DNA of 64,000 nucleotides, from positions 4,216,001 through 4,280,000 of the forward strand of contig NZ_CP166097.1 in NCBI RefSeq assembly GCF_041228105.1, written 5' to 3'. This DNA comes from Pectobacterium aroidearum. GTDB lineage: Bacteria > Pseudomonadota > Gammaproteobacteria > Enterobacterales > Enterobacteriaceae. This document shows, one piece after another, positions 5,463-29,173 of the stretch; positions within the stretch are counted from its first letter, which is position 1; each line of letters starts with the position of its first letter. Below the pieces are notes generated by a model. That model had not been told where the DNA came from. It saw only the letters and a program-made list of their open reading frames with translations, and ran no database searches. The position numbers were made by a program, and so were the translations under genes.

Positions 5463-5784
5463 AGTCAGCCCTCTTGTATCCAGTCGGTTAGACAAGAATT
5501 TTCATCACAGTGGTTCAGGCTATTGCCGCTTCAATATCGAGATACACGGGGCTACCACGGCGCGAGGTGTCCCTGCGGGAACCTCATCACCGTGTTTCCC
5601 CTAACATCTAACATTGGGTGTAGCCTGAGATATAAAAAATTCCAGCTATTTTAAATATATAGCAGTGATAGGAACAACATAATCGAGGGGATAAGCGCCC
5701 TCCTTCACGTCACTGCCAGCAGAAACAGGAAGCTGGCAATGACAGGAAGAAAGTCAGGATCGACATCGCAGAAATCAAAACTGA
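5463..5784. other. Intergenic region between rhiE and the export cluster
   Basis: This 322-bp gap must hold the rhiE promoter (minus strand, next to 5463) and the end of the export transcript. It contains the 81-bp palindromic repeat described separately (5536-5616) and a 7-bp hairpin TGCCAGC / GCTGGCA (5714-5720 with 5732-5738), which has no U-tract on the minus strand and is at best a weak terminator for the export genes. No further gene was seen. Confidence 0.6.
5536..5616. repeat. Dispersed palindromic repeat, copy 1
   Basis: An 81-bp intergenic sequence that reappears without indels at 51538-51618, about 90% identical by eye. It folds as an outer arm ACACGG/CCGTGT and an inner hairpin GAGGT-GTCCC-TGC-GGGA-ACCTC. 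In copy 2 the inner arm is GAGAT/ATCTC, so both sides changed together and pairing is kept. This suggests a small structured repeat family of the REP/MITE type; the family name is unknown to me. Confidence 0.75.
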
Positions 5785-7914
5785 TCAGAATGACAGTTCG
5801 CGAATCAGTACCGCAGACACCACCTTCCAGCCGCGAACCAGCAGGCTTTGCGCCTCACCGTCCATCACCACCGTGCCGCGCAGCACCTGCGGCTGAGCAC
5901 GATAGTCTTCAGGCAAACTGAGCAGCACGCGATAAACGGCCTGTTCAGGGTGCAGTTTGCGCTGTGCATCGCTCAGCGTGGCAATATCGCCGCCGTAAAT
6001 CGATGCCAGCTCTGGCGCAGCGTTCAGATCGCGGGTGGCCGTGCTGGCGATCTCCACAATGGTGAGCGGCAGCGACGAGCGGCTGACATCCTGTAAATAA
6101 AACGTCCCCTTTGCGCCGGAGTGAAGCCGCTGCCAGTCTTTTTCCGACACGAACGCTTCTACCAGCCCGCCGGTCGGCTTGGTGACAACCGCTAGCCATT
6201 CGCCCTGCCCCAGCCACTCACCCGTTGCCAACGGCGTTGCCATGTCAGCCACCACACCGTCTATCGGCGCACGTACCGTCAGCTGTTCAGACTGACGCTG
6301 CAATACCTGTAACTTTTGTAATGCCGCGTCGTGCTCCTGCTTCACTCGCAGGTGGTCGCCAGCCGCTTCCTTGTTGAAAACCTGAAAGGCACTTTGCCAG
6401 TTCAGCGTAGCGATTTGTCGCTCCAGCTGTTGCCGTTCATGCACCAGCGCGTCAGACGACAGCGTAAATAGCGTCTGTCCCGCGCGTACAGGCTGACCCA
6501 CCTGTACTTCAATGCGCTGAACCATCGCGGGCACGGGCATATACAGGCTGCTTTGCTGTTCCGCCCGCAGCAGCGCTGGCGCGTACACACCGCGCTGCCA
6601 GGGAATCATCAGCAAAAGCAGAACTACTGCGCTCACGGTCAACGTTGTCGTCATATTACGGTTCATACGATAATCCTTACGGCGTTTACTCCATTCGCGC
6701 ACTTCATTCACCACTGGCATCACCACGAAATAGCCGATTTCAATGGCGAAAAGCAGCATCCCCAGCAGCTTGAACGCCATGTGATAAACCAGAATCGCGA
6801 TACCGGTAAACAGGAAGAAACGGTATATCCACACCGCGAAGGCATACCCCACCAGCGTGCGTTGTAGCCAGCGGGGAAAGTGTTCCGGCGGCGCATCCCC
6901 CAAGCCAAACAGCCATTCCCGCATCTGCCAGCGGCCGATCGCAAAACCCCGATTTTGCAGGTTCGGCACCTGTAACCCATCGGAAAGCAGAAAATAGCCA
7001 TCGAAACGCATAAGCGGACTGAGGTTAATCGCCAGCGTCATAATCCAGGTCGTCGTTGCCAGCATAAACGCCGCGCTGCGCAGCATACCGTCCGGCAAGA
7101 AGCTCCATGCCAGCGTCGCCCACGCCGCCAGCACCAGTTCGGTCATCATGCCTGCCGCACCAATCGCCATCCGCTGTCGGCGGCGGGTGAGTTTCCACGA
7201 CCCAGAGGTATCGGTATACAGCACCGGCATCATCACCAGAAATGCGACACCCATCGTGGCAACCCGCGCACCAAAGCGCTTGCAGGTGTAGGCGTGGCCG
7301 AACTCATGCAGGATCTTGGTAAAACACAGCGTCAGCCCCGCCAGCGCTGCGCCTTCCAGCGTGAAGAAATGCAGAAAGGTATGCTTGAACGTTTCCCACT
7401 GGCGTCCGGCGAGAAAGAGCCCCAGCACGGCCACCAGCAGCGTCAGTTTGAGGAAGGTTCGGCTGAAAAACGGCTCAACCCACCGTAGCGTCGCGCCCAG
7501 AAAACGATCGGGATGCCATAAGGGAATACGGAAAAACAGATAGTTCTTCAACAGCTTGCGCCAAATGGAAACGCGCGACTGCTCTACCTGACGAGAAAAT
7601 TGCGCCAGCGCGTCATCGCCGGCAACGCGTGTCAGGCTGTTAGCCTGCAAGAAACGGTTGAAATACTGCACATCGCTGTCATCGAGCGTTAGCGCAGAAG
7701 TCTGGTTAACCTCGGCCACAATCTGCGCCGCGTTCCCCATCGACCAGCGCGATAACATCGCCATTTCTGCCCAGCCGATACGGAAATAGAGACCACGCAG
7801 CGGATCTTCCAGCGTCCAACTGGGGGATCCGTCGCGATTAGCCGGCCCGGCGTGCAGGATCAGTTCATCGCGCAGCGGGCTGAGTCCGGCGGCTGGGGTC
7901 GCGCCTCCGGCCAT
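5785..7914 (-). CDS. Membrane M50 (site-2-protease-like) metallopeptidase fused to an HlyD-type adaptor
   Basis: A 709-residue polytopic membrane protein. The N-terminal 120 residues are soluble and PqqD/winged-helix-like in appearance. A six-helix membrane core follows, with HEFGH at residues 203-207 and NLSPLMRFDG at 297-306, the two zinc-binding motifs of the M50 family, both intact. After the last helix (about residues 425-445) comes a biotinyl-lipoyl/HlyD-like periplasmic domain with coiled coil (about 460-709). This fusion occurs in loci described as 'putative peptide zinc metalloprotease' exporters. It is the last gene of a minus-strand cluster that starts with the giant LEPR protein and ends 2 bases after the GAF-HlyD gene. 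Processing or guiding the giant protein during export is an inference. No ABC ATPase is present in the cluster. Confidence 0.85.
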   Translation of the reverse strand: MAGGATPAAGLSPLRDELILHAGPANRDGSPSWTLEDPLRGLYFRIGWAEMAMLSRWSMGNAAQIVAEVNQTSALTLDDSDVQYFNRFLQANSLTRVAGDDALAQFSRQVEQSRVSIWRKLLKNYLFFRIPLWHPDRFLGATLRWVEPFFSRTFLKLTLLVAVLGLFLAGRQWETFKHTFLHFFTLEGAALAGLTLCFTKILHEFGHAYTCKRFGARVATMGVAFLVMMPVLYTDTSGSWKLTRRRQRMAIGAAGMMTELVLAAWATLAWSFLPDGMLRSAAFMLATTTWIMTLAINLSPLMRFDGYFLLSDGLQVPNLQNRGFAIGRWQMREWLFGLGDAPPEHFPRWLQRTLVGYAFAVWIYRFFLFTGIAILVYHMAFKLLGMLLFAIEIGYFVVMPVVNEVREWSKRRKDYRMNRNMTTTLTVSAVVLLLLMIPWQRGVYAPALLRAEQQSSLYMPVPAMVQRIEVQVGQPVRAGQTLFTLSSDALVHERQQLERQIATLNWQSAFQVFNKEAAGDHLRVKQEHDAALQKLQVLQRQSEQLTVRAPIDGVVADMATPLATGEWLGQGEWLAVVTKPTGGLVEAFVSEKDWQRLHSGAKGTFYLQDVSRSSLPLTIVEIASTATRDLNAAPELASIYGGDIATLSDAQRKLHPEQAVYRVLLSLPEDYRAQPQVLRGTVVMDGEAQSLLVRGWKVVSAVLIRELSF

Positions 7915-7916
7915 CG

Positions 7917-9272
7917 TTAAACCCCTAGCCAGACGCGCAGAGAGGCCAGCGGTTTACGCAGCAGGTAGACAAACAATACCGTGCGTTTCCCGTACAGCTT
8001 AGCCGTCCCCTTCAGGCCCACACGCAGCTGTGGATCATCCTGCGTAAAGCGCGCCCGCAGCCGATAAGCCATCACATTATCCGGCGTTGGCGCGGCGCGG
8101 TAGCCAATCTGCTCAAGCCGCGCGTCCTGTGCCGAATTCGGTGCAACATTGAGGAACAAGCGCACATCCGCGCCGTTTTCCAACGCAATCGCGTCCGCCG
8201 CGGGCAACTGGATCTCCAGTTCAACATCGTGCGGATCGGCGATCATCATGATGCGTTCTCCCACCGACACCGAGCGCCCAATCCAGTCGTTGCTATCATC
8301 AAAAATCGCCACGCCGTCGCGCGGGGAAGTAAGCTGCATGCGTTCTTGCTGACGTTGGAGAAAATCCATGTCGCTCTGCGCCTGCTCGCGGCGGCTTTGC
8401 AGCACGGCCAGACTGGCTTTGCTATTGGCATCGAACAGCGCCTGCTGCTGTGCCTGACGATACTGGGCATCAGCCGTAGCGAACGCCTGCCGCGCGGATT
8501 CCAGCCGATTTTCCAGTTCGCGCACGTCCAGCCGCACCAGCGGCTGATTGGCACTGACACTCTGATTAGGACGAACCAGAATATCATCCACCACGCCCGC
8601 CACAGGCGCACGCACCATCACCGGACGGTGTGCGACGATCTCCGCTGGCGCCAGCACCGACTGGCGAACCGGGATCAATAAGATCAACACCAACGCCACG
8701 ATCCCCGCCAGGATCAAACGACGTTTCTTCGGACTGGTGTTGGTCTGCCGACGACGTTGCTTCAGCAAACTCGACCAGGCGTGCGCGTAGGCGTCCGCCA
8801 GTTTTTCCAGCAGCACGATCTCAGCAGGCAGCCACGCGCTGTCCCGCGCTAGCGCCAGCACCAGCGGCGCATCACCCTGCGGTAAACGCAGCGGCAGCCA
8901 AAGTAAAAACTCCGGCAGATGTTCCTGCCACAAAATCCGATCGTCAGTAGCTAGCTCGCGGCATTGTAGCGTCTGCGTTTGACGCCCTTCTTCCTGCCAC
9001 TGGCGGCACAAGCGACTAAATTCGGTACAAAATGGCGCGTTGTGATCGAGCGAGGCCAGCCCGGAAGCCGCCTGCAAGCGCTGTTTATCGCAGTCCCACA
9101 GCAGCGCCTGACGATACTTCACTAAATTATGCGTCTCGTTGACGATAAAAAACGCCAGTTCATCTAGCGTTTCACGTGCTCTGGCACGGCTTTGCAGCTG
9201 TAATAGTTCGGCCAGCAGCGCCAGCCGGATATCCTGTTCAGTTTGTGCTGCGGTCGTGTTCCGTTCGGTCAT
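7917..9272 (-). CDS. GAF-domain/HlyD fusion membrane adaptor
   Basis: A 451-residue adaptor. Residues of about 25-170 resemble a GAF domain in the cytoplasm (ETLDELAFFIVNETHNLVKY and following), then a basic stretch, one transmembrane helix (about 188-206, LILAGIVALVLILLIPV), and a periplasmic HlyD part with a lipoyl-like half motif (APVAGVVDDILVRPNQSV), a coiled coil (about 255-310) and a beta-barrel. A sensor-like domain in front of a membrane-fusion protein is unusual and could link export to a cytoplasmic signal; that is inference. Its start overlaps the upstream adaptor stop by 4 bases (ATGA) and it ends 2 bases before the M50 gene, so these genes are translationally coupled. Confidence 0.83.
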   Translation of the reverse strand: MTERNTTAAQTEQDIRLALLAELLQLQSRARARETLDELAFFIVNETHNLVKYRQALLWDCDKQRLQAASGLASLDHNAPFCTEFSRLCRQWQEEGRQTQTLQCRELATDDRILWQEHLPEFLLWLPLRLPQGDAPLVLALARDSAWLPAEIVLLEKLADAYAHAWSSLLKQRRRQTNTSPKKRRLILAGIVALVLILLIPVRQSVLAPAEIVAHRPVMVRAPVAGVVDDILVRPNQSVSANQPLVRLDVRELENRLESARQAFATADAQYRQAQQQALFDANSKASLAVLQSRREQAQSDMDFLQRQQERMQLTSPRDGVAIFDDSNDWIGRSVSVGERIMMIADPHDVELEIQLPAADAIALENGADVRLFLNVAPNSAQDARLEQIGYRAAPTPDNVMAYRLRARFTQDDPQLRVGLKGTAKLYGKRTVLFVYLLRKPLASLRVWLGV

Positions 9273-10024
9273 GGCGACACGCTGCCTGCATCAGGCGGCA
9301 CGATTTGCGCCACGCCGCTCATGCCCGGCAGCAATCCGGCGGTAGACTGGGTAATACGACCAAAGACTTTTACCGATTGACTGACCGGATCGATCGCTGA
9401 CGAGAGCCGACTAATTTCCGCCGGGTAGCTCAGGCCGGTTTCATCCAACGTAACCTGAAAAGCGCTGCCCTGCTTGAGCCACACCAGCCAGCGGGACGGC
9501 ACGATCATTTCCAATTCGAACGCGCTGTCATCATAAATCGCTAACAGCTCTTTGCCTTCCGGCACCGATTCCCAACGCTTCACTTTGGTTTCCGTGACAC
9601 GGCCGGAGAACGGGGCTTTAATGGCACAGCGTTGCAACATGGCGCGATTGACGCCACTTTCGGCCTGCGCCATCGACACCGACGATCGCGCCTGATCGAC
9701 ATCCGACAGGCTGATCGAATTGAGCTTATCCAGCCGATCGGCAATCGCCAGCTTCTTACGCGCGGCATTCTCTGCCGCGTTTGAGTAGTTCAGCTTTTCG
9801 CGCAGCACGGTGCAGTCAAACGTCACCAGCGTATCACCCTGCTTGAAGTGTTCGCCCTCTTTCACCGCAATATCCGTCACTTTCCCGGCAATTTCGCTGG
9901 ATAACACGGTATAGCGCTGCGCGCTAAGCTGTACGCGAATGTCTCCCGTCGTCGCAGCCTGCCCCCACAGGGGCAGACTTAACGCACTCACCAGTAACAG
10001 CGGACGCATCATGCCGACAGCCAT
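9269..10024 (-). CDS. Periplasmic HlyD/RND-type membrane fusion protein
   Basis: A 251-residue periplasmic adaptor with a signal peptide (MAVGMMRPLLLVSALSLPLWGQA), a lipoyl half motif (LSSEIAGKVTDIAVKEGEHFKQGD), a short coiled coil (about residues 78-128), the second lipoyl half (IKAPFSGRVTETKVKRWESV) and a barrel domain. Such proteins join an inner-membrane component to a TolC-like channel. The start at 10024 shares a base with the stop of the preceding TolC-like gene (TAATG), so translation is coupled; an alternative ATG lies at 10009. It has no transmembrane anchor, unlike its two neighbours. Confidence 0.85.
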   Translation of the reverse strand: MAVGMMRPLLLVSALSLPLWGQAATTGDIRVQLSAQRYTVLSSEIAGKVTDIAVKEGEHFKQGDTLVTFDCTVLREKLNYSNAAENAARKKLAIADRLDKLNSISLSDVDQARSSVSMAQAESGVNRAMLQRCAIKAPFSGRVTETKVKRWESVPEGKELLAIYDDSAFELEMIVPSRWLVWLKQGSAFQVTLDETGLSYPAEISRLSSAIDPVSQSVKVFGRITQSTAGLLPGMSGVAQIVPPDAGSVSP

Positions 10025-11811
10025 TAACGCGAACCTCCGGCCTGTAGGGATTGCAGGTTATCCCACATATCCGTATTCACGACGCGGTATGGTTTCCCCG
10101 CGTTGGCCGATGGCGTTACCGCCACAGGCGTGATGGGTTTCGTGACAACGGAACCTGTTGCAGAAGCAGTGACGGCAGGAGCCGTCGTGGTGGCAGGCGT
10201 AGCCGGTGTTGACAGAGACAGACGCGGCACGGCAACGCCACCTTTCTCAAGGTTCCCTGTGGTGCGGGCAATCGAGTTGCTCAGCGCCGCCAGACTGACA
10301 TCGTTCACGTTATCCGGCAGCACATCCAGTCCGGCAGCCTGATACACCGCGCCCAGCGCGTTCTGCACATCGGCAAAGCTGCGGTCACGTGCGCGGGTGG
10401 TCAGAATGGTTTCGGTGCTGACGCGTACCTGCTCCATTTGCGTTTCGGCACGATGCTGTACGCTGAGCGTGGTCTGGTTGAGGATACCGCGCTGAATCCG
10501 CGCCAGTTCCTGATAGCGACCGAACATCCGCGTACTCTGCTGATATTCCTGCCAGGCGACGTTCACCTGTGTCAGCACCGCCATGCGTAGCGCCTGACGA
10601 CGAACTTCCGCCAGATCTTCATTCGCCTGTCCGGCACGTTTAACCGACGACCACGACAGCACGTTCAGCAGGTTGCCGCTGACCTGAACACCCGCGTTTG
10701 CCCACTGGTGATTGACCAGATAGCTGTTGCTGTCGCCGTTGATACCGGCAAACAGCGACACACCCGGCAGCAGGCGCAGCAACGATTTGCGGGTTTCCAG
10801 TACGCTATTGCGTGCCAGATAGCTCTCTTCACGCACTTCCGGGCGTTTAACCATCGAGAAGTTTTCCAGATCGTCGAGCGAGTAGGCCATCTTCGGCGCG
10901 ACCAGACTGCTTTCGCTCGGTACAACGACATCGTATTTACTCGACGGCGGCAGGTTCATCAGCGCGGCCAGACGGGATTTCGCCACCACCAGATCGCTGT
11001 CAACGATTTCTAACTGACGTACCATCTCCAGCATGTTTTTCTGGAAACGCAGCGCCTCAACCGGTGCCAGCAGACGCTGTTGCTCAGTCTGACGCGCGTA
11101 TTCCAGTGCCTGACGCGCCTGCGTCAACGCAGTCGTCACTTCTGGCTGCAAACGCTGCGCCGTTGCCGCTTCCCAATAGGCGGTCCGCACCTGACGGGTA
11201 ATATCCGCGACCACACGACGACGACGCTCTTCCGCCGCCAGCGATTTGTTCGCTTGTACTTTGGCGTTGAAATAGCTGATACCAAAATCCAGCACGTTCC
11301 AGCTCATCGTCAGATCGGCGGTACGCTGGGTCTGATCCTGACTGGTGGACGCTTCCAGTGATTGCCGACCCGTGGTAACCGACTGGCTGCTGGAACCAGC
11401 GACATTATCGCGGGTTTGCAGGCCAGCGCGGGCGGTCAGTTTAGGTAACAGCATGTCCAGATTCTGTACGCCCAACAGGTCATCTTCCATCGCCTGTTCC
11501 ATCAGTGCGACCCGCTGTTGCAGGTTATATTTCAGCGCACGGGCAATCGCCTCATCCAGCGTGATCGTGCCGCGCACCGGTTCTTGATTGGCGAACATCT
11601 GCGTTCTGTCGCTCAGCGCCTGTGCGACCTGCTGTTCGATCGTCACCGGCTCCGGCTTGACGGCACAGCCGGCCAGCCCCAAACAGGCAAGGGTCACCGC
11701 GATCCGTAACACCCGGGAGCCCGCGGTGCGTGGTGTAGCCTCGTGTTGAACGTGCTGCTGCTGACTGTCGTGTTGCTGGCTATCCCAGAAATGCGCTATG
11801 TGCTGATTCAC
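10024..11811 (-). CDS. TolC-like outer-membrane efflux lipoprotein
   Basis: Outer-membrane efflux protein of about 595 residues with two repeated helical OEP domains (roughly residues 75-290 and 295-490) rich in coiled-coil heptads. A lipobox LGLAGC precedes the mature part (Cys near residue 49), so it is probably a lipoprotein. The C-terminal 110 residues are a low-complexity Thr/Ala/Pro/Val tail not usual for TolC. The frame opens with ATG at 11826, but GTG at 11811 has GGGGAG seven bases before it and is preferred. It supplies the outer-membrane channel for the cluster. The stop overlaps the next start by one base. Confidence 0.87.
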   Translation of the reverse strand: MNQHIAHFWDSQQHDSQQQHVQHEATPRTAGSRVLRIAVTLACLGLAGCAVKPEPVTIEQQVAQALSDRTQMFANQEPVRGTITLDEAIARALKYNLQQRVALMEQAMEDDLLGVQNLDMLLPKLTARAGLQTRDNVAGSSSQSVTTGRQSLEASTSQDQTQRTADLTMSWNVLDFGISYFNAKVQANKSLAAEERRRRVVADITRQVRTAYWEAATAQRLQPEVTTALTQARQALEYARQTEQQRLLAPVEALRFQKNMLEMVRQLEIVDSDLVVAKSRLAALMNLPPSSKYDVVVPSESSLVAPKMAYSLDDLENFSMVKRPEVREESYLARNSVLETRKSLLRLLPGVSLFAGINGDSNSYLVNHQWANAGVQVSGNLLNVLSWSSVKRAGQANEDLAEVRRQALRMAVLTQVNVAWQEYQQSTRMFGRYQELARIQRGILNQTTLSVQHRAETQMEQVRVSTETILTTRARDRSFADVQNALGAVYQAAGLDVLPDNVNDVSLAALSNSIARTTGNLEKGGVAVPRLSLSTPATPATTTAPAVTASATGSVVTKPITPVAVTPSANAGKPYRVVNTDMWDNLQSLQAGGSR

Positions 11812-11916
11812 CCGGGTTCTCCCCATCTTCTATTTGTCTGTTCCCTTCATCTGGCAAACTCCCGCCTGCCAGCGCCAGGGTTAGTGGTTAAGTAAATAAA
11901 ATCTCGTCTTAATATT

Positions 11917-11945
11917 CAGCCTACGTGTGCTATGTACGCAGGCTG
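11917..11945 (-). terminator. Hairpin over the stop codon of the giant gene (weak or partial terminator)
   Basis: An imperfect 10-bp stem (11917-11926 with 11936-11945, one mismatch) spans the TAG stop of the giant protein gene. On the minus strand only a loose ATTTTATTT follows about 15 bases later. It may lower read-through into the export genes; strength is uncertain. Confidence 0.4.
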
Positions 11946-14900
11946 CTCAGTTCACTGAGCGCCGCCAGCAGCGCATCTTGTTCCGGCTGATGCTGACGCA
12001 GTTGTTCGGTAAAGGCGGTTTTCCCCGCAGACGCTAACCGTTCGACATCCCGGCTTTCAGCGGGCTGTATCGTGGGGTTGGCTGGCCCTTGCATCGCACC
12101 ACGGTCAGTCGCCATCTCGGCGCCAGCACCCTGTCCGGTTTGCAGCGTAATCGGTACGATCCGGCTGGTGCCATCTGCGGCCTGCGCTTTCAACGCCAGT
12201 TGAATCTGATTAACCTGCACGGCACTGGCATCGGTAATGCGCACCACGCCGCTGCGGGCATCAAACTGCACCCACGCAGGCAGAGGACGCCCGTTCGCCA
12301 GTTGCAGCGTCAGCGTGGCATTGCCTTCACGCACGCTGAACATGCGCTGCGGCAGGCTAAAGGCGAGCGCGCCGGAGGCATCCGGCTGTAACGCGCCCTG
12401 CACGCTGCTGAATGCCGATTCCAGCGCCGTTGTCTGACCGCGCACGCTCAGGAACAGGTTGGAATCCGTCGGAGAAACGGCGGCGCTGTCACGCACGGTG
12501 GTGCTGGCACGCGAAGAGAAGTTGACCTGATCCAGCGTCGGCATGAGCTGTGACATCACCGGATCGAGTACCCAAGGCGCATCAGACTGCCGTGTCGAAC
12601 CCGCATCACGCTGCCGTGCAGGCTCAGCGACAATGTTGGTTGGTAGCGCTTGCGCCTCCGGGCGAGACAGATCGGCGACAATCGCGCCCAGCGGCTGTTC
12701 ACGCTCTCTTTCATCCGCATCGGCGGGCAGGCTCACGCCCTGCTGCACCAAAATCACCGGTGCCGCTGTGGCGGTGTTGTCAGGATTGGCCGGCTCCGTC
12801 GGCGTACCGGGATCAACCGGCGTCGACGCGGCGTTGACCGTCAGCGCCACATTCAGCGCCGTCGCGTTGCCCGCGCTGTCCGTGGCGGTAATCGTCAGGT
12901 TGAACGTTCCTGAAACAGCCGGATCGCCGCCGATCGTGCGCGTTACGGCATCAAACGTCAGCCCGTTCGGCAGACCGTTGATCGACAACGTCAGCGTATC
13001 GTTTTCCGCATCGCTGAACAGGTTATTGGGTAAGGTATAGGACCAGCGAGTGCCAACCTGTGCCATTGGCGGGGTGAATAATTCTGCATGGCCAACAGGC
13101 GGCTGGTTAACCTCTCTTGACAGCGTCACGCCAAGTGTTTGCGCTGTAGAGTCGGTTTCACCGTCATTGAGCACCAGCGTCAACGATGTCGCGTTCCCCG
13201 TCAGCGGTGCGCTTGTCGCCCAGCTAATCTGGCGAGCCAGCGCCGTCGCGTCCGCACGGGAAATAGCGGCAGTGAAGGTGATGGTGAGCTTGCCTTCTGC
13301 CTGTGTGAAGGTCGCTACCGCTTGCCCGTCTTTGCTAATTACGCCATTCGCCAACGTGAAGCCATTGCCCGCAGTAAAATCGAAGCGATCGCCTGCTGAT
13401 GCCGTTTCACCTCGCTGTAGCGTGATCGAAGCGCCCTGATAGTTTCCTGCTCCTCCGTTCAGCGCATCCAGTTCCGCATCACTGAAGACGAGCGACGGCG
13501 CAACGATAACCGCCGGACCATCGATGCGATAAACCGGCAGGCGAGAGACTTCATCCAGCACCGTCACGCCATTGCCGAGCGCAATCAGACCACCGTCAAC
13601 GGGCAACAGATGGGCAAAGCCCGCCCCGTCATTTTTCAGCGTATCGAGTTTTGTCAGCGCCTGACCATTCAACACATAGCGAGTCAGCGAACCGTCGCTT
13701 TGCGTAACGTACAGCACCCGCGCATCCGCAGAGAAAGCGATACCATTCACCGTGCCTTCCGTCGCAACGCGGGCAAGGTGTGTGAAGGTTCCCGTTGCCG
13801 TATCCAACGCGAAGGCATCGATGTGATCTGCACTGGCAACAACAATGCTACGGCCATCGGCGCTAACCGTTATCTGTTCCAGTCCAGAGAGTTGTACGGT
13901 ATTACCCGAAGCATCGGTAACGTCACGGGTGTATCCCAATAGCGTCGGCTCGCCGTTGTCACCACGCGTATACACAATCAGTGATGAACCACTGCTGGTG
14001 TTCGTCGTCACAAAGAGCAGATTACCGCGGCTGACTATTTCACTGGGTTGCCACAGATAGGGCTCACTCCACATCCCCCCTTCAATCAATCCCACATAAT
14101 CGAGCTTGCCTGTGGCCGTATCGCGGGTAAACCAGAGAAGGTTGTAGTTGTTGATGACATACAGCGTCTTACCATCATCAGACAGGGTGATGCCTTTGAT
14201 GTCGTAGAGGTTGCTTTTATGTATATCGTAGTTATCAACGATGGTTTCTTTATGCTCCAGATTGCCTTCAGCATCGCGGCTAAACCAGACAATCGCGTTA
14301 CCGTCGGCACGCAGTGCATACACGCTGTTGCCATCGGCGGAAACCTGTAGCTGACTGATCCCTCCGACGCCTTCAACGGCGGCAAAGGTCCGCACATAGG
14401 TTAATTCGCCGCTGTTCGCATCACGCTGGAATAAGGCAATCGCCCCTTTATCATCGCTGACATACAGCGCCAGTCCGTCTGTCGTGCGAGCGGCACTCTT
14501 CACCGTGCCTAGCCCGGCGATCGCGGTATACGCATTCACCAGACGCAATTCATCGGCGGAGAGCACCGGATCGTTCGCCACGACAGGCGTGTCGTTGATC
14601 GCGGTAATCGTTACCGACAAGGCCGTAACCTGAGACTCCAGATAACGATCGGACAACGTGACGGTCACCGCAACCTGTGCAGCAGGCGTATGGCTGTCGC
14701 TGGCGTAAGTAACCTGACGTAGCGTGTTCTGCACATCTTCCGTAGTGGGGATAGTGCCCGCATTCGCGTTAAAGCGGATCGTCAGCACACCGTCTTTATT
14801 GCTGACCTGACCGATGGTAACGCCGTCTTTTTGCAGCGTATCGCCGGATAGCGTCAGGCCGTTACCCGCGTTAAAACCGAGCTTATCGAGTGCTGTTTTC

Positions 14901-17900
14901 CCGTCACCCAACGTAATCTTGAGCGTCGCGCCGTCGTAGTTACCCTTGCCACCGTTAAGTTTATCCATCTGCGCATCGGACACTGTCGCATCCGGTGCCA
15001 ACACAATAGGATCGGCACGCTCGGTATACGTCGGCGTAGTGCCCGGAACCGTAATGACTGGCGCAGTATTGGTCTCTGCCGCAGGCACCAGTGTTAAGGT
15101 AATTGCCTGCTCTAACGTGGTTTCCGGTGCGCTGCCGCTATAGTTATTCTCCTTGATCATCAAGGTAACATGGCGTTCCCCGCTAGCGTCGCTACCCAGA
15201 TAGTTGTAGCCGATGCTGTCAATGATCGCGGCAGTGCCACTACCGTCTTTCCCGACGTACAGGAGAACCGTTGCTTTACCGTCTTTCACCTCAACAGAAT
15301 ATTGCAACCCACTGGCGGTGCGCGGTGTACCGTTAGATTTTTCGAGCACGATCGTACTGCCATCGACGCTGATCGTCTCATTGGGCCCTGACACATCAAA
15401 CGTCAGCACCACCTGCCAGATAGTTTGCCCGCTCTCAATGGTGTCGATATGCGTATCTTTAAACAGCTTAACGAACTCGCCGTTGCCCGGAATCTGTGGA
15501 TTCAGCACCGTCGTGGTCAGCACAGCCGGATCGTTTACGCCGATCAGATTAACCGTCACGTCCATCGTCGCAACGTTATTGTCACCGTCATTAATGCTAA
15601 AGACGAATGTCGGCGACGATCCCGCATGTTCAGGATCCTGACTGGTGTTCTGGTAGGTAATCTGACGCAACACATTTTGCGCATCAGCTTTTGTCACCGC
15701 TGCCGTAAAGGTCACCTTCAGCACGCCATCAACCTGCGTAAAGGTAGCGATCGTGGTGCCATCTTTGACGATATTGTTACCGTCCAGCGCTAAGCCGTTA
15801 TCGGCCTTAAAGCCGAAGGTATCTTCCGGTAGGCCACCTTCTTGTCGGCCTACTGTGATGCTGGCACCGTTATAGTTACCCGCACCGTTATTTAACGCAT
15901 CTAGCTGCGGATCGGACAAACGGCCTGACGGCAGCAGTACCGTTGCGTCAGTCTTTTCGGTATAGGTGGCACCCGCTGTCCCGACATTCAACACATGAAC
16001 TTTATCGCCGCCAATCAGGTACAGTTGCTTACCGTCTACACTCAGTTCTACATTTTGTAGATCCGAGAAGGAAATATTGAGCGGGCTATCCCAGCCGCCG
16101 CTAATCGTATGTTTCAGCGTCAGACTGCCATCCTCGGCACGAGCGAAAACAGAAATATTCTTACCAATCACGAACAGCGCCGTGCCATCGGCAGAGACAA
16201 CCAGACCGGTTGCCAGCGCTTCACCAGTATCCCCCCCGTCATTGACAAACGGCACCGTTGCGACCAGCGAGAGTGCCCCATCGACCCCCACCGTTATCGT
16301 ATTGAGCGTGTACTGAATGCCATCAGCATTAATCGCATACAGGGTCTTGCCATCAGGTGAGAGGGCAAGTGAATTGATGTAGTACGGGTCATCGCCTTCA
16401 GCACGAATCTGGGCAACCTGAGTTAACTTGCCCTCAGCATCAATACTGAAACCCGTGATACCAACCATATCAACCGTATCACCTGAACCCGACACGAACA
16501 GGTAACGCCCTTCAGGATCAAGCACGAGACGGCTCGCCCCGATCAGGTTATCGGTCTGAGAAACCGACGTCAGGCTACCGTCCGTCCCGCGCTTAAACAC
16601 CAGCACGCTGCGGCTGTCATTATCACTGCCAGACTGGGCAGCGGTGAGATAGAGGTAATCGCCTTGAGAAACAATGTGAGAACGCACATCCAGCGAATGG
16701 CCACCTAGTGCCGCCTGATCGAGGACACCGGCTTGCGTCAGTTCCCCATCGCTGCCAATGCGGAAAAGGGTCACCGCGTTGCCTTCACTGCCTACCACAT
16801 ACAGGTACTGCCCATCGGCAGACAGGGTAACGTCTGATGCCCCCGCCAACGCGGCATTGTCCACAATCTTATCAAGCTGTCCCGTTTCATCGTTATACAC
16901 GGAGCGATAGTTGTAGAAGGTCTTCGACAGGGTAAATTTGCCTTCTTCGTTACGGACAAACACGCTCAGTACCGCTGAACCACTATCAGGCGAACTGACA
17001 ACGTAGAGAGTTTTTCCGTCAGCAGACAACGCGGTGTCTTTTACCCCGCTCAGTACATCCACATAATTATTAGAGTCATTGCCGTCAAGATTGTAATCAT
17101 TCTGAAGGGCGCTGGATTCGCCGCCGATCGTCGGGATTTGTGCAGGGTCGGAGGCAACGGTTAATGTCAGCGTCCGCTCCGCCTGTTCGCCCGATCCATC
17201 GGTTGCCACGACGGTAATAGAGAAGCTTCCCGCCCCATTAAGCGCGGGTGTACCAGAAATCGTGCGCGTTTCAGGATCGAAGGTTAACCCAGCAGGAAGT
17301 CCGTTCACCTGCCACGTCAGCGCACCATTTTCAGGATCGCGGAACAGATCTTCTGGCAGTTCTGCACTATACGAGTGTCCTGCTGTACCAGACGGCGGCA
17401 CGTACTCGACGTTATCCACCACAGGCGGCTTATTCGGCACCAGCGTCAATAGCAGACTGGTCTCCTTACCGCCGTCGCTAAAGGTGATATTCAACGGAAT
17501 CGATGTACCAGCCGCATCGCCATCATTACGGTAAGTCACCTGATGCAGAACCTGATTGGCGACCGTTTTAGTGACGCTGTCGGTAAACACCACCTTCACC
17601 GTCCCTTCACTCACGTTGAAGGTGCCAATGGTCGTGCCCTGATACTGAATCTCGTTGCCGGACAGCGTTAACCCGTTCCCATTCTGGAAAGCAAAGCGAT
17701 CATTTGCCGATGCTTCGCCATTGCGACTAATGGCAATAGATGCACCCTTGTAATCATCGGCGGCGTCCAGTTCCTGATCTGACAGTGTGACGCTCGTGGC
17801 AAACGGGGCATCCGTCGTTTGGCTATAAGGCGCATTAGCTGCCGCATTGAGCACGTTCAGCCCGGCAAAGAACGAACTGACCCCGGCATAGATATTCTTA

Positions 17901-20900
17901 CCATCCGCACTGACGGCAAGATGGTTAACCGTGTTAATCGAGAGTTCAACGCTATTGCGGTAGGTTAAGGCACCAGAATCGCTATCGCGGCCAAACACCA
18001 GCACTGACTGACTACCGAGCGCAGCAACATACAACGCCGAACCGTCTTCGGATATCACCAGTTCACGCAGTGACAGCGCATTCGCAGGAATATGTCCTGC
18101 ATTATACAAATCCAATGTCCCAGCATAGGTCAGCGACCCGGTGTCCACATCACGGCTGAAAATCGAGACGGTGCCCTGAGTATTTGAGGACACATAGACA
18201 AAGCGGTTGTCAGGGGAGATCACGATATCCTGCAACCCAGTGAGATAACGGTCGTCCTTCGGAATTTCCGCGCTGTTCGCATCAGCCGCTATCGTCGTTT
18301 TATTGATCGTAGTGACGTAGTTCAGGCTGCCCGTTGCGGCATCGCGCGACAACACGGTAATACTGTGATTCCCCAGGTTGGAGATATACGCCGATGTGCC
18401 GTCACTGGACAGCACGATGCCGCTCGGGCTTCTCACCGGAATGGTGTCGCTGCCAACCAGCGAGCCGACAAACGTCAGCGCACCGGAGGTGGTATCACGC
18501 GAGAAAAAGGTAATCGCGTTTTTACCCGTAGAGCCATCCGTCGGTGTCACACCGTTAATGGTGTACAGCGAGGTGCCATCTTCGGACAGCACGATCTCGG
18601 AAACTGCCGCATCCAGGCCGCTGACGCCATTCACGCCCTGCGTGGCAACTACGCCGACATAGCTCAGCAGTCCCGTTGTGGCATCACGGCTAAACTGCAC
18701 CAGCGAGTAGGCGCTTCCGCTGCCTCCCGCCACATAGACGCTACTGCCGTCTTTTGACTGTGCCAGCGTGGTGATGGTGTTCAGGCCGTTAACTTCAATC
18801 GCAGGAGTAGATGGATCATCCTGTTCGCCCTGCGTGAAGCTTTGTAACAGTGTTAATTTGCCGCTTTCCGCATCACGAGCGTAAACGCGCAGGTAGGTTT
18901 TGCCGCTGTTATTGTTCCCTTCACTACCGGTGACCAGCAGGGTTTTCCCATCCTGCGAGACACTGATCGCCGAGACGCGTTCATTGTAATCACTGAGCTT
19001 TCCGTCGTTATAAAACAGCGCGGCATCGGGGGAGTAGGTTGCCTCGATCGTTGGAAGTTCGTTGAAGGCCAGATTAACGCTGCCAGAAACCGTCAGCGTC
19101 GCGGTATCGCTGCCGCCATTGGCGGTGCCGCCGTTATCCTGCAACTCGGTTAAGGTGATGGTACGTAAACCGCTGGCGCTAGTGCTCTCTTTACCAGTCG
19201 AGTAGCTCAGGCCATCGACCAACTTCATCACCGCCATGCTGCTGATGCCTTGAACGCTACTCAGCACCAGTGAAGACTCGCCGCTCAGGGCGTTATACGT
19301 GTAACTATACTGATAGCCGCTCACCGTCGTGCCCGCGCTGTCTTTGCTCAGATCGATGACCGTGCCATCAACAGTCAGGTATTCCTGATGCGGGTTGTTT
19401 AGGCCATCAATGCCTATCGACAGTTTGGTCAGTGCCTGTCCAGCTTCTCCGGTATTCACAGCGGTATCTTTGAATATCGTGACGGAGGCGCCACGCGTAT
19501 CCAGCGTCAGGCTGCTTCCGCCCTGACTAACCAGCGTTGGCGCACTGTTGGCAGTCAGCAGCAACGCGACCGTGGTCACCGTGCTGTTCAGCTCGCCATC
19601 GTTCGCGGTCACCGTCAGCACCACCGTCTCGGTAGCGCTCTGGCTACCGATGTTGCGGTAGGTGATTTGCTTCAGGACGGCATTGGCGGTTTCTTTCGTT
19701 ACATCAGCGGTAAAGGTGACGCTAAGCACGCCCTGATTCTGCGTGAACGTTCCAATTTCCGTGCCTGATTGCAGAACTTTGCCATCTTGCAGCGTCAGGT
19801 TGTTGCCTGCGCTTAGGCCGAATTGATCGTCTGCGGAAGGCGTTTCACGACCGATAGTTATCACCGCGCCGTTATAGTTTCCGGCACCATCGTTTAACAC
19901 ATCCAGATTGCTATCCGAAAGCGCAATATGATCGGCAAACGGTAAGTCGCTGCCGTAGAGGTAAGTGCGTAAGGCGCTAAAGCGCTGAATGGCCTCACCC
20001 GCGATCAGGAGTGATTGCCCATCGGGTGACAGCACCATGCCACGCGTATCGCCAATATTCGTAATCTGGCCGCTTTCGCTTAGTGCTCCCGTAGAGGCGT
20101 TGACGCTATAAATCTGCAATGCGCCTTCGCTGCTCAAAGCATAGAGCTGGCTCCCGTCGGCGTTAAGATAGACTGCGTTGACACCTTCCAGCGTTTTCGT
20201 ATCCGTACGGGCCAGCGTCTTCCCTTCAGTACCATCGCGCAGTTGGTAGACGCTAATTTCGCCGTTATCAGGATCGGCGACGTAGATGAACTGTTGATCC
20301 TTCGAGATCGCCAGTTGGTAATCTACCGCACCATAGCCTTCCCCAGACGTTTCCAATGTCGCGACAGAGATTAATTTTCCGCTATCACTCCGCTGGAAAA
20401 CCGACAGCGTGTGCTTTGCTCCCATCCCAATCGTGACCACATAGTTACCGCTGCTCGCCACGATACCACTGCGATCGATTCCGCTGTCATTCACCACCTG
20501 AAGTAGCGTCAGGCCGCCCGTCGTCGCATCGCGAGTAAAGACGACCATGCCGTTCCACTGTGTAGTGGCATAAACCTGAGTACCATCGCTGGAGACGGCC
20601 AGTCCGGTAATATTGCCGTTTTGCGAAGGGGTAGTTTGGGTATAGCTGCCATCGACCTGAATGACCTGCCCGTTATCATCCAGGCTAAGTGCAACAATAT
20701 TTTTATCGCCCGTGATGGCATAAAGTGAACGGTTGTCCGCACTCAGCGCGATGTCTTTCACATCTTTGAGCGCACTGATATCGCTCAGCGTTTGGCTCAG
20801 CGTCAGTTTGCCATGTTCGCCGACGGTAAAGACCCCCAGTGTGCCATCGCTTCCTATGGCGTAGGCATACTCGCCATTACTGGAGTAGCGTACATCCTGT

Positions 20901-21598
20901 GGAGCCTCCATACCGGGCACGACGATCAATTCAGCCAGTTCGGGCGCATCCGATGCAGACACCACTGGCGCTACGTTGATTTTGCTATCGATAGTGATGG
21001 TCGAGTGGATATTCAGATCGGCCGTGTCGCTCTCATCGCTCAGGCTTTTCAGCGTCACCGTGACATCCCCACCGGCCACGGTTTTATCGAGTGGCTTATA
21101 GGCAATACCGTCGATCAGCTTCGCGACGTCATTGGGCTGAAATGCGTCAGATGAAGCAATGCTAACGGTGATGGTTGTCGTCCCACCACTAACCGCAACG
21201 GTATAGCCGTATTTTCCATCGCCTTCCGTCGTTTTTGCGCCATTAGCGGCTTCCAACGTAATTTCAGTACCGTCGATGACAATTGCCTGATTCGCGCCCG
21301 TGCGATTGACGGTAATCACCAGATCTTTCAGTTCCTGCCCACCTTTATCCGCCGATACGCGAACCTCGCTGAACAGATCAATCGATGCAAAGCTGTCGCT
21401 GGAGTCGGTAATAGTGACCGTCGCCTTAACCGGCGTAGCATCAACGCCGGGTGCCGTGTCTGTTGCCGCAACGTGTGCCGCCACATCCACCGCGGTCACC
21501 ACAGCGGCGGCATCAAACATCATGCGCGGTTCCAATACCCACGCCTGACGCGGCGTGCGCGTTAAGCCTGAACCAGATTTTGAGCGGGAAAAAGTCAT
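11930..21598 (-). CDS. Giant LEPR-motif exoprotein with beta-propeller and cadherin/Ig-like modules
   Basis: Very large secreted or surface protein of about 3,222 residues. The N-terminus has basic residues and then VLEPRMMFDAAAV (about residues 21-33), the LEPR-type signature seen at the start of giant proteobacterial exoproteins; there is no Sec signal peptide. Four regions of YVTN/lactonase-like propeller repeats (SxDGxxLYV, about residues 229-546, 869-1253, 1513-1869, 2358-2679) alternate with five copies of a module of about 125 residues starting LSDxxLDxLNxGxGNYxG (about 557, 1269, 1890, 2204, 2703). Three copies of a second module and two putative Ig domains (about 1400-1480 and 2841-2923) are also visible. 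A cadherin-like domain lies near 3075-3156. No RTX GGxGxD repeats occur. ATG at 21598 follows AGGA by 9 bases; the upstream ATG at 21637 has AGGA touching it. An adhesin or matrix role is inferred. It lies directly after tadG and before its likely exporter. Confidence 0.88.
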   Translation of the reverse strand: MTFSRSKSGSGLTRTPRQAWVLEPRMMFDAAAVVTAVDVAAHVAATDTAPGVDATPVKATVTITDSSDSFASIDLFSEVRVSADKGGQELKDLVITVNRTGANQAIVIDGTEITLEAANGAKTTEGDGKYGYTVAVSGGTTTITVSIASSDAFQPNDVAKLIDGIAYKPLDKTVAGGDVTVTLKSLSDESDTADLNIHSTITIDSKINVAPVVSASDAPELAELIVVPGMEAPQDVRYSSNGEYAYAIGSDGTLGVFTVGEHGKLTLSQTLSDISALKDVKDIALSADNRSLYAITGDKNIVALSLDDNGQVIQVDGSYTQTTPSQNGNITGLAVSSDGTQVYATTQWNGMVVFTRDATTGGLTLLQVVNDSGIDRSGIVASSGNYVVTIGMGAKHTLSVFQRSDSGKLISVATLETSGEGYGAVDYQLAISKDQQFIYVADPDNGEISVYQLRDGTEGKTLARTDTKTLEGVNAVYLNADGSQLYALSSEGALQIYSVNASTGALSESGQITNIGDTRGMVLSPDGQSLLIAGEAIQRFSALRTYLYGSDLPFADHIALSDSNLDVLNDGAGNYNGAVITIGRETPSADDQFGLSAGNNLTLQDGKVLQSGTEIGTFTQNQGVLSVTFTADVTKETANAVLKQITYRNIGSQSATETVVLTVTANDGELNSTVTTVALLLTANSAPTLVSQGGSSLTLDTRGASVTIFKDTAVNTGEAGQALTKLSIGIDGLNNPHQEYLTVDGTVIDLSKDSAGTTVSGYQYSYTYNALSGESSLVLSSVQGISSMAVMKLVDGLSYSTGKESTSASGLRTITLTELQDNGGTANGGSDTATLTVSGSVNLAFNELPTIEATYSPDAALFYNDGKLSDYNERVSAISVSQDGKTLLVTGSEGNNNSGKTYLRVYARDAESGKLTLLQSFTQGEQDDPSTPAIEVNGLNTITTLAQSKDGSSVYVAGGSGSAYSLVQFSRDATTGLLSYVGVVATQGVNGVSGLDAAVSEIVLSEDGTSLYTINGVTPTDGSTGKNAITFFSRDTTSGALTFVGSLVGSDTIPVRSPSGIVLSSDGTSAYISNLGNHSITVLSRDAATGSLNYVTTINKTTIAADANSAEIPKDDRYLTGLQDIVISPDNRFVYVSSNTQGTVSIFSRDVDTGSLTYAGTLDLYNAGHIPANALSLRELVISEDGSALYVAALGSQSVLVFGRDSDSGALTYRNSVELSINTVNHLAVSADGKNIYAGVSSFFAGLNVLNAAANAPYSQTTDAPFATSVTLSDQELDAADDYKGASIAISRNGEASANDRFAFQNGNGLTLSGNEIQYQGTTIGTFNVSEGTVKVVFTDSVTKTVANQVLHQVTYRNDGDAAGTSIPLNITFSDGGKETSLLLTLVPNKPPVVDNVEYVPPSGTAGHSYSAELPEDLFRDPENGALTWQVNGLPAGLTFDPETRTISGTPALNGAGSFSITVVATDGSGEQAERTLTLTVASDPAQIPTIGGESSALQNDYNLDGNDSNNYVDVLSGVKDTALSADGKTLYVVSSPDSGSAVLSVFVRNEEGKFTLSKTFYNYRSVYNDETGQLDKIVDNAALAGASDVTLSADGQYLYVVGSEGNAVTLFRIGSDGELTQAGVLDQAALGGHSLDVRSHIVSQGDYLYLTAAQSGSDNDSRSVLVFKRGTDGSLTSVSQTDNLIGASRLVLDPEGRYLFVSGSGDTVDMVGITGFSIDAEGKLTQVAQIRAEGDDPYYINSLALSPDGKTLYAINADGIQYTLNTITVGVDGALSLVATVPFVNDGGDTGEALATGLVVSADGTALFVIGKNISVFARAEDGSLTLKHTISGGWDSPLNISFSDLQNVELSVDGKQLYLIGGDKVHVLNVGTAGATYTEKTDATVLLPSGRLSDPQLDALNNGAGNYNGASITVGRQEGGLPEDTFGFKADNGLALDGNNIVKDGTTIATFTQVDGVLKVTFTAAVTKADAQNVLRQITYQNTSQDPEHAGSSPTFVFSINDGDNNVATMDVTVNLIGVNDPAVLTTTVLNPQIPGNGEFVKLFKDTHIDTIESGQTIWQVVLTFDVSGPNETISVDGSTIVLEKSNGTPRTASGLQYSVEVKDGKATVLLYVGKDGSGTAAIIDSIGYNYLGSDASGERHVTLMIKENNYSGSAPETTLEQAITLTLVPAAETNTAPVITVPGTTPTYTERADPIVLAPDATVSDAQMDKLNGGKGNYDGATLKITLGDGKTALDKLGFNAGNGLTLSGDTLQKDGVTIGQVSNKDGVLTIRFNANAGTIPTTEDVQNTLRQVTYASDSHTPAAQVAVTVTLSDRYLESQVTALSVTITAINDTPVVANDPVLSADELRLVNAYTAIAGLGTVKSAARTTDGLALYVSDDKGAIALFQRDANSGELTYVRTFAAVEGVGGISQLQVSADGNSVYALRADGNAIVWFSRDAEGNLEHKETIVDNYDIHKSNLYDIKGITLSDDGKTLYVINNYNLLWFTRDTATGKLDYVGLIEGGMWSEPYLWQPSEIVSRGNLLFVTTNTSSGSSLIVYTRGDNGEPTLLGYTRDVTDASGNTVQLSGLEQITVSADGRSIVVASADHIDAFALDTATGTFTHLARVATEGTVNGIAFSADARVLYVTQSDGSLTRYVLNGQALTKLDTLKNDGAGFAHLLPVDGGLIALGNGVTVLDEVSRLPVYRIDGPAVIVAPSLVFSDAELDALNGGAGNYQGASITLQRGETASAGDRFDFTAGNGFTLANGVISKDGQAVATFTQAEGKLTITFTAAISRADATALARQISWATSAPLTGNATSLTLVLNDGETDSTAQTLGVTLSREVNQPPVGHAELFTPPMAQVGTRWSYTLPNNLFSDAENDTLTLSINGLPNGLTFDAVTRTIGGDPAVSGTFNLTITATDSAGNATALNVALTVNAASTPVDPGTPTEPANPDNTATAAPVILVQQGVSLPADADEREREQPLGAIVADLSRPEAQALPTNIVAEPARQRDAGSTRQSDAPWVLDPVMSQLMPTLDQVNFSSRASTTVRDSAAVSPTDSNLFLSVRGQTTALESAFSSVQGALQPDASGALAFSLPQRMFSVREGNATLTLQLANGRPLPAWVQFDARSGVVRITDASAVQVNQIQLALKAQAADGTSRIVPITLQTGQGAGAEMATDRGAMQGPANPTIQPAESRDVERLASAGKTAFTEQLRQHQPEQDALLAALSELSSLRT

Positions 21599-21656: not shown

Positions 21657-23288
21657 TCATTCAACCAGCCGAACATAGCCGCCCTCGGTTTCGATCTGGC
21701 CGGCGATACGATCCAACCGTTGAATCAATTGATCCTCAACGCCCTCTGCGCCGAAGCCTGCACCATCGATAAAGCTCATGCGTTTTTCGCCCTCGGTACA
21801 GACCAGCAGGCCCGGCGTCGCTTCTCTGTCGAACAGGTTGCGGCCAAAGTCTTCAGGGTCGCCGGGACGAATACCGACAAAATAAAATTTGATGTTGCGC
21901 GCGCGGAAGCTGGAACACAGATCCTGGAAGCGCTGTGCGGCAAAGGAACGGGCAGGATCCGTTCCGGTCGAGCCACGAAATTCGTTACGATTGAAGTTGT
22001 AGCTGTCGGTGTCGAACCAGTTACCGATGGTGTTAGCCATCATGACGATCACCTTTTGCCCATCACCATTGCCGTCCAGATTGAAATCCAGCGGTAGCGT
22101 CGTATCGCCCCAGCCGTCTGAACCACGCATGTTGGGTGACAGCGCCGCCCCTGCCCATGACATTGCGATCGCATAGTTGGTGTTAAAGCGTGGGGTAAAC
22201 TCGGCAATACGCTGATTCAACTTGCTTTCTTCATTGGTCAGCGGCATCAATGCGGCATTCGGGCACCCTCGATCCGCGACGATAAAGCGGGTGTCTACGG
22301 CATCGGAGTTGTTATCCCACGGATAGAGATCGGGGTTAGGGCCACGCCAGGTAATCGGCGGTGCGCCGGGGCTGCCGTTTTGCGGCAAATCGTGGCGGTA
22401 GTACACGCGGAATTGCCCAACGGGCGGCTCGTCCCAGAAGAAGTTTTCTTCTCGGCCCAGCCCACGGTACATGCACAGCAAATTCGCCCGGCGATCCGGG
22501 AAACGACGATCGGCGAGGCTGCTGACAACCCCGCTGGCAAACAGTGAACGCAGCTCCGGTGGGTTTAGCGCACTCGGCGTAGACCAGCGACGAATGCGAT
22601 TCGCGTCTTCCGCGTCATACACATTCACCGACTGGCTGTACGGCACCAGTGAGAGCCACAGGTTGTCGCGTTTACCGTCCGCGCTGCTCAACATGCGTTC
22701 GACAAACGAGCGGCTAACGCTTTTCAGCGAACGGATATCGGCATCACTCATATCCCCCGTCACTGGCATAACAAGGGCAATTTCAGTCGGACGGTTGATG
22801 ACCTCAGCAGTCGAATACACTTCCTGCTTTCTCGCCCCGAGGCTCATCAGGCTGGGTTTGGTTTCGAAAGCGACGGTGACGGTATAGGTTTTACGCGTCG
22901 CGCTGTTACGTCCTTCCGCAACGGATACATCACTCGCCACCAGTTTTTCACTTAGGGCCTTATTCATCCCCAGATTATTTTTGACGTATTCATACGCCAG
23001 CTTATTAGTCTCTTCCTGACTGTATTCTTCACCATTAATGGTCGCCTGATGCCCGACAGCCAGCGCAGCGGCATCCGTCGCGCGTTTGATTTGCGTCGCA
23101 TCACCGGTTGCCGTAGAGGTATCGACGATAAAAGCCGCCGTCACCAATAAGGCCATCGCCCCCAGCACATAAAACCCTGTGCCTGCCCCCTTTTCCTGCT
23201 GAATAAAAGCAGACAGGTGTTCACGCCAGAACAGAGTGGTTCTGCTATCGTCTTTTTTTACTCTTCTGTTCTGTAAGGTTTTTTTCAT
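21657..23288 (-). CDS. tadG: TadG-like pilus assembly protein (vWA-type)
   Basis: A 543-residue TadG-like protein. A basic N-terminus is followed by one transmembrane helix (about residues 38-58, GFYVLGAMALLVTAAFIVDT) and a large periplasmic part that begins with the Tad-type DAAALAVGHQ segment. The vWA-like domain starts near residue 170, but where a MIDAS motif DxSxS is expected it reads IALVMPVTGDMSDAD, so metal binding is doubtful. TadG is thought to act as an accessory minor component of Flp pilus assembly. The start has AGGAAGGA directly before it. The gene ends 58 bases before the giant LEPR gene in the same direction. The 178-bp gap to tadF holds a hairpin. Confidence 0.85.
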   Translation of the reverse strand: MKKTLQNRRVKKDDSRTTLFWREHLSAFIQQEKGAGTGFYVLGAMALLVTAAFIVDTSTATGDATQIKRATDAAALAVGHQATINGEEYSQEETNKLAYEYVKNNLGMNKALSEKLVASDVSVAEGRNSATRKTYTVTVAFETKPSLMSLGARKQEVYSTAEVINRPTEIALVMPVTGDMSDADIRSLKSVSRSFVERMLSSADGKRDNLWLSLVPYSQSVNVYDAEDANRIRRWSTPSALNPPELRSLFASGVVSSLADRRFPDRRANLLCMYRGLGREENFFWDEPPVGQFRVYYRHDLPQNGSPGAPPITWRGPNPDLYPWDNNSDAVDTRFIVADRGCPNAALMPLTNEESKLNQRIAEFTPRFNTNYAIAMSWAGAALSPNMRGSDGWGDTTLPLDFNLDGNGDGQKVIVMMANTIGNWFDTDSYNFNRNEFRGSTGTDPARSFAAQRFQDLCSSFRARNIKFYFVGIRPGDPEDFGRNLFDREATPGLLVCTEGEKRMSFIDGAGFGAEGVEDQLIQRLDRIAGQIETEGGYVRLVE

Positions 23289-23399
23289 TCCTTCCTATCC
23301 TGTATACCTGGATTCAGCGCGTACTCAACCCGCCCATCAAGCGGGAAAATAAAAACGACATGGCTCACACGTTATTTGTCTTAATGGTTTCGTTATTTT

Positions 23400-23422
23400 C
23401 GGTAACGAGGCTCTCGCTACCG
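23400..23422 (-). other. Hairpin between tadF and tadG
   Basis: A 10-bp stem CGGTAACGAG / CTCGCTACCG (23400-23409 with 23413-23422, one G-T pair) with a 3-base loop lies in the tadF-tadG gap. On the minus strand it is followed by an A-rich, not U-rich, run, so it is not a standard terminator. It may be an mRNA processing or stability element. Confidence 0.4.
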
Positions 23423-23466
23423 TTTGCGATCTATTTGCCGCTTCTGTATTTTCTATAAAACCGTAG

Positions 23467-25536: not shown

Positions 25537-25565
25537 CGGTTGTCACCGCCGTGATTTCCGGCACA

Positions 25566-25690
<125 letters not shown>

Positions 25691-25736
25691 TATCGGGAAT
25701 CGATATTTTAAAAATCAATGTGTTGTAAATAAAAAA

Positions 25737-26696: not shown

Positions 26697-26710
26697 GAAT
26701 GGCTCTCCCT

Positions 26711-27691: not shown

Positions 27692-27709
27692 CAGCGTCTC
27701 CTCACCCCA

Positions 27710-29113: not shown

Positions 29114-29173
29114 AATCCTGAACCCCAAAAAACAGTCTGTAACCCGTTGAAAAACGGCGAGCGCTTAACATCA

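Follow-up and report, generated by a model that had tools for sequence, protein, structure and literature searches.

How does a giant protein leave a Gram-negative cell if the exporter-like genes beside it include no ATP-binding cassette (ABC) ATPase? The question is raised by five consecutive minus-strand open reading frames (ORFs) of Pectobacterium aroidearum, at 21598-5785 of the stretch of DNA analysed here (the window: 64,000 nucleotides, at 4216001-4280000 of the one 5.28-Mb contig of the genome labelled G000). From first to last, these encode a giant protein with an N-terminal LEPR motif, a TolC-family outer-membrane factor, a periplasmic adaptor (membrane fusion protein, MFP), a GAF-MFP fusion and an M50 protease-MFP fusion (M50-MFP). 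Sequence comparison suggests, with a probability that we put at roughly 0.6, that the block encodes an exporter which spans the envelope and is dedicated to the LEPR giant, resembling type I secretion but with a different inner-membrane part.

Association of LEPR giants with the M50-MFP

A sequence-only reading of this DNA had described five minus-strand genes in a row, with 1-4 base overlaps or tiny gaps from the TolC gene on, and the ORF coordinates bear this out (spacings of 103, -1, -4 and +2 bp from the giant to the M50-MFP). The M50-MFP is present, with 94-99% identity, in each of the 23 other genus genomes, and their loci (23 of 23) share the gene order giant, TolC, MFP, GAF-MFP, M50-MFP. 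The exceptions in the genus concern reading frames: that of the giant is broken in G021 (locus L193) and G015 (L203), and TolC is in two frames in G018. The comparison supports the view that the five genes are a single unit.

A second, diverged LEPR/M50-MFP system lies in G000 itself, at 4552346-4568274 (L034/L039). It comprises an MFP, a GAF-MFP, an M50-MFP that is 40% identical to that of the window, a tail-collar protein, a 2854-aa LEPR giant and a TolC protein. Of 24 genus genomes, 18 have such a second M50-MFP intact and one has it interrupted (G021:C1:4172550-4174644), and the whole set is also present in G044, which belongs to another family. On the opposite strand beyond this system are genes that, by eye, resemble a non-ribosomal peptide synthetase locus. 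Small tail-collar (phage tail fibre-like) genes adjoin 6 of 20 window-type locus sets (L039:1053-1883, L035:3082-3900, L228:20149-22256, L229:3445-4059, L232:2994-4853 and L234:8510-9409) and 0 of 99 loci of a sister group discussed below, in a count for which five of the six positive loci supplied the queries. The tail-collar protein is perhaps a second surface component or cargo.

A neighbourhood search for LEPR proteins together with M50-HlyD and GAF-HlyD genes, as the sequence-only reading had suggested, found co-occurrence and shared gene order across many bacteria. Relatives of the M50-MFP at E <= 1e-20 were found in 42 members of a 276-genome sample of the class. LEPR matches at E <= 0.05 are found in 41 of the 276, and 27 of these 41 also have an M50-MFP (p 7e-17). 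At a LEPR cut of 1e-3, which was picked after the search and which the window's own giant (0.009) fails, the figures are 21 genomes and 19 with an M50-MFP (p 8e-16), or 17 of 19 when counted by genus (p 3e-13). In 11 of these 19 genomes no more than 15 kb separates the LEPR frame from the M50-MFP; in the other 8 they are on different contigs. Chance adjacency of giant and exporter was considered as an explanation, and is rejected by this co-occurrence in genomes, the different-contig pairs included. Comparison thus supports the view that LEPR giants and the M50-MFP and GAF-MFP proteins belong together across bacteria.

The same pattern bears on a different explanation of the block, namely that it is a signalling or regulated-proteolysis device, with a GAF sensor and a site-2 protease, in which the adaptors move small molecules and the giant is a mere neighbour. 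The GAF-like domain, the conserved M50 motifs and the RND-like adaptors would all suit such a device. However, the LEPR association holds across many families, and even between contigs, and Pfam finds no small-molecule pump among the five window genes, so we consider this explanation very improbable.

The association extends to plasmids, 67 records of which carry a P0001 relative (P0001 being the M50-MFP of the window). The window's gene order is present on all six plasmids read, from Niveispirillum, Azospirillum, Burkholderia anthina, Kosakonia, Citrobacter and E. coli; in Azospirillum (A. argentinense Az39, L232) two frames make up the giant, and in Citrobacter two annotated genes correspond to the GAF-MFP. 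In the five plasmid giants that were translated (all six but Citrobacter), an LExR motif is found at the N-terminus. M50-MFP genes are on 18 Escherichia and 8 Citrobacter plasmid records, and a search of E. coli genomes gave no close match to the exporter DNA of the window itself. An insertion sequence is located just downstream of the five-gene cassette on E. coli pABWA45_1 (L230, L233) and Citrobacter pB18196_2 (L231).

The giant and its putative machinery

The LEPR giant (P0005; 11930..21598, on the minus strand like all features of the block) is the proposed cargo, of about 3222 aa. Its frame is open to 21637, and the start ATG at 21598 is common to its relatives in the genus. Domain search and sequence composition reveal a lactonase-type beta-propeller, Ig-like repeats, a pI of 4.35 and no cysteine. 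The RTX nonapeptide GGxGx[DN] occurs 0 times, in agreement with the earlier statement that the giant lacks RTX repeats. The LEPR-XLL motif (LEPRMMFDAAAV...; 21482..21535), which is the proposed export signal, matches profile NF012209: the N-terminal 92 residues score 18.3 bits against a curated cut-off of 17, and the genome search gave 19.1, while a scan of the whole 3235-aa giant frame did not list this profile. LEPR N-termini are basic, and in most of them LExRxx(F/L/Y)(D/S)(A/G) follows. The two ends of the protein are its conserved parts: the first 30 and the last 30 residues (the latter AFTEQLRQHQPEQDALLAALSEL, 11933..12022) are each 95% identical on average, versus 68% for the whole protein, among 21 of 23 genus proteins (L193, with a short frame, and L203, with a broken one, were left out). 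Intact giants in the genus range from 1768 to 3245 aa.

Pfam finds OEP in the TolC-family protein (10024..11826), which by eye has the lipobox LAGC, HlyD_3 or HlyD_D23 in three proteins, and Peptidase_M50 in P0001 (28.6 bits, cut-off 27.2). The separate adaptor (MFP/HlyD_D23; 9269..10024) has a signal-peptide-like N-terminus. The GAF-MFP (P0002; 7917..9272) consists of a GAF-like N-terminal domain, one apolar stretch (seen by eye) and a periplasmic adaptor. Its description as a GAF-HlyD fusion holds directly for the HlyD part, by Pfam. For the GAF part it holds by family comparison, since the P0002 family aligns along the GAF-MFP family with an hhalign probability of 99.9 and 4 of 12 aligned members have a Pfam GAF match, although P0002 itself has none.

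The M50-MFP (5785..7914) combines a PqqD-like N-terminus, a multi-pass M50 protease and a periplasmic adaptor, and a structure search with P0001 returned, among the matches listed, only adaptor and biotinyl folds. Its HEFGH zinc motif (residues 203-207; 7294..7308) and its third zinc-ligand motif, NLSPLMRFDGY (residues 297-307; 6994..7026), supply H203, E204, H207, N297 and D305. These residues are invariant in both alignments, one of 33 rows and one of 50 rows. The latter holds P0001 and 49 M50-MFPs, chosen mostly by frame length, from 80 named loci (the best 80 of at least 588 confirmed, ranked by likeness to the sister-group query, with no Planctomycetes among them). The PqqD-like region (of the RiPP recognition element type, RiPPs being ribosomally synthesized and post-translationally modified peptides) spans residues 19-90 (7645..7860). 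The PqqD model PF05402 matches 36 of the 50 rows (E <= 0.1) and 13 of the 33 (E <= 0.5), at best with 4e-7, and the predicted N-terminus of P0001 has three strands and three helices in the order EEEHHH, at low model confidence. Since PqqD-like domains bind the leader peptides of small modified peptides, this one is a candidate for recognizing the LEPR end.

The inner-membrane step and its energy

The absence of an ABC ATPase from the block, as first read from the sequence, is confirmed: none of the 109 window ORFs of at least 100 aa combines Walker A and LSGG, and none of the 150 scored of 231 ABC candidates in G000 lies in the window. The five-gene blocks on the six plasmids read likewise contain no ABC gene. 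A linked ABC protein was rejected as the energy source, as few loci have ABC-like ORFs (6 of the 80 named ones and 3 of 40 from the class), and the best-scoring model for each of the four tested was Uup (G154) or MsbA.

Alternatively, the inner-membrane step could depend on an unlinked ABC exporter of the LssB/LapB or PrtD type, leaving the M50-MFP only to process the giant. G000 offers candidates for this, with two LssB-type and two PrtD-type genes over the cut-off elsewhere in the genome. However, LssB-type genes are over the cut-off in 8 of 41 genomes and PrtD-type genes in 1 of 24, which is G000, and neither type passes it in 23 M50-MFP genomes (in a search that did not include the HlyB model). 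Four of these 23 assemblies consist of one contig, and 18 of the 23 show LEPR-type N-termini. In addition, the four ABC ORFs tested near the loci fitted other models best. We therefore regard an unlinked ABC exporter as quite improbable. The sequence-only reading had the M50/HlyD protein replace the ABC protein as inner-membrane component; co-occurrence, synteny and the genomes lacking LssB and PrtD types favour this, but in G000 taken alone one of its four ABC exporters elsewhere could also be involved.

What supplies the energy was not evident from the sequence of the window, and a likely answer now comes from a sister group, in which a dedicated SecA paralogue is in the operon. The window's branch and this group align and join in one tree (a quick tree, rooted at the midpoint, in which rows L100 and L105 count as lacking SecA although it occurs elsewhere in their genomes). 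A truncated SecA paralogue lies beside the M50-MFP at 71 of the 80 named loci, a share that is not a whole-family rate because the loci were ranked by likeness to the sister group. This paralogue (L115:7772-9781 and 33 aligned relatives, together 34 of the 71 SecA frames, chosen mostly by frame length) ends before the wing and two-helix-finger region, and an SecA_SW match is found, marginally, in 2 of the 34 rows. Canonical SecA acts on SecY via that region, and the truncated SecA may thus act other than in the usual way on SecYEG. In the window's branch, the housekeeping SecA is most likely the motor, because each of the 12 genomes placed in this branch has a single SecA; in G000 the one match is a 930-aa frame. 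In two giants of the sister group (L112:12341-16300 and L117:8758-14565) there is a shared C-terminal apolar stretch, xLLxxxLxxxPxWxxxDPxxxL, which is perhaps a membrane anchor.

A single SecA per genome would also suit a two-step route, in which the giant crosses the inner membrane via SecA/SecYEG with LEPR as an atypical Sec signal, adaptors and TolC carry it outward, and the M50 protease removes the signal remnant. The N-terminus of P0005, which is basic and then has an apolar segment after the motif with a hydropathy of 1.95, equal to that of likely signal peptides here (1.93-2.21), points the same way. However, in 12 of 13 relatives of the giant the first 70 residues have no signal-peptide-like core (hydropathy 1.0-1.68), and the SecA of the sister group lacks the region that the canonical enzyme uses on SecY. 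Moreover, no pump made of adaptor and TolC is known to us to accept a periplasmic protein of 330 kDa. A two-step route is thus unlikely.

In the dedicated exporter that we favour, the giant would stay unfolded in the cytosol, and the PqqD-like domain of the M50-MFP would recognize its N-terminus, which is conserved, basic and includes LEPRxxFDxA. The giant would then be driven N-terminus first through the inner membrane by SecA, the housekeeping protein in the case of the window and the dedicated paralogue in that of the sister group, and the adaptor domains of the three MFPs would connect the inner-membrane part to TolC. The M50 site would clip the N-terminus of the giant or free a stalled end, and the conserved tail at its C-terminus may serve to retain it at the surface or to release it there. 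A more specific proposal is that LEPR-XLL is the signal of a secretion system of its own, with a PqqD-like reader, the M50-MFP as conduit, SecA as motor (truncated in one group) and TolC, bypassing both ABC proteins and SecYEG; this we advance tentatively.

Several observations weigh against a dedicated exporter of this kind, besides the ABC exporters of G000 and the borderline N-terminus of P0005 given above. SecA is missing from 18 of 18 rows of the window's branch, so that we infer the motor there, and 27 of the 44 genomes positive for M50 lack a further SecA (in a search in which 4 of 80 genomes gave no SecA match at all). PF05402 has no match on P0001 itself, whose PqqD-like region is modelled at a pLDDT (predicted local distance difference test) of about 42-72. 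Of the 41 genomes with LEPR at E <= 0.05, 14 have no M50-MFP, many of the matches being weak and in short frames. Clear LEPR proteins without a detected M50-MFP are carried by G246 and G124. The LEPR giant of G246 (L213/L214) occurs in a genome with an LssB-type ABC gene over the cut-off, and LEPR may thus use another route there; that of G124 is at L226.

Directly upstream of the giant, at 21657-30373 of the window, is a Tad-like pilus locus (TadG-like, two T2SSF genes and T2SSE). A gap of 19 bp separates the end of the TadG-like gene from the open frame of the giant, so the two may share a transcript. Downstream, a rhamnogalacturonan lyase gene (polysaccharide lyase family 4; 3732-5495), on the same strand, adjoins the operon.

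Relation to known systems

A secondary SecA with M50-HlyD, GAF-HlyD and HlyD proteins was found by Kamneva, Poudel and Ward (2015, PMC4452313), who proposed M50 as pore and SecA as ATPase. They call the biological role of the module "completely unknown" and name no cargo, and "LEPR" is absent from the main text of their paper. The paper also names Methylobacterium extorquens AM1, which has a four-gene SecA locus. The module resembles the window in having M50-HlyD, GAF-HlyD and HlyD/biotinyl proteins in one locus and no ABC protein. However, its loci were found through a secondary SecA_DEAD, whereas the window block has no SecA and includes TolC and a giant. We found no literature that links LEPR proteins to the M50/GAF/HlyD module, in a search with poor coverage of subscription papers and preprints.

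Three points thus appear to be new. LEPR giants are the probable cargo of the M50/GAF/HlyD module; there is a SecA-less, TolC-containing branch that includes the window; and the M50-MFP has a PqqD-like domain that could serve as reader of the LEPR signal. Through the LEPR link, the locus of PMC4452313 would acquire a cargo and a candidate signal, as well as a branch without SecA that extends to enterobacteria and to plasmids of E. coli. Whether proteins can be exported by SecA and an intramembrane protease without an ABC pump becomes a testable question, and the link could also account for the exit from Gram-negative cells of many giant proteins that have neither RTX repeats nor clear signal peptides.

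The window shares MFP and TolC components with type I secretion (HlyB/HlyD/TolC, and LapB/C/E for giant adhesins) and, with giant-adhesin export, an acidic, cysteine-free, repetitive giant cargo and probably a single step. It differs in its three MFPs, its conserved segments at both the N- and C-terminus of the cargo, and its lack of RTX repeats, which are usual but not universal in type I cargo. Because an ABC protein was sought in the block and not found, we consider the block to resemble type I secretion in its working without belonging to it. The sister group resembles the accessory Sec system of Gram-positive bacteria (SecA2 with serine-rich adhesins) in having a dedicated SecA and a giant, adhesin-like cargo, but has a truncated SecA together with Gram-negative adaptors and TolC, and the window's branch has no dedicated SecA. 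Finally, P0001 resembles the M50 proteases of daptide- and YydH-type RiPPs (NF041824, NF058609), with 145.6 bits to NF041824 over residues 69-399. This score is below the curated cut-off of 300, however, and P0001 differs from those proteases in being fused to an MFP and in having as its neighbour a giant protein rather than a small peptide.
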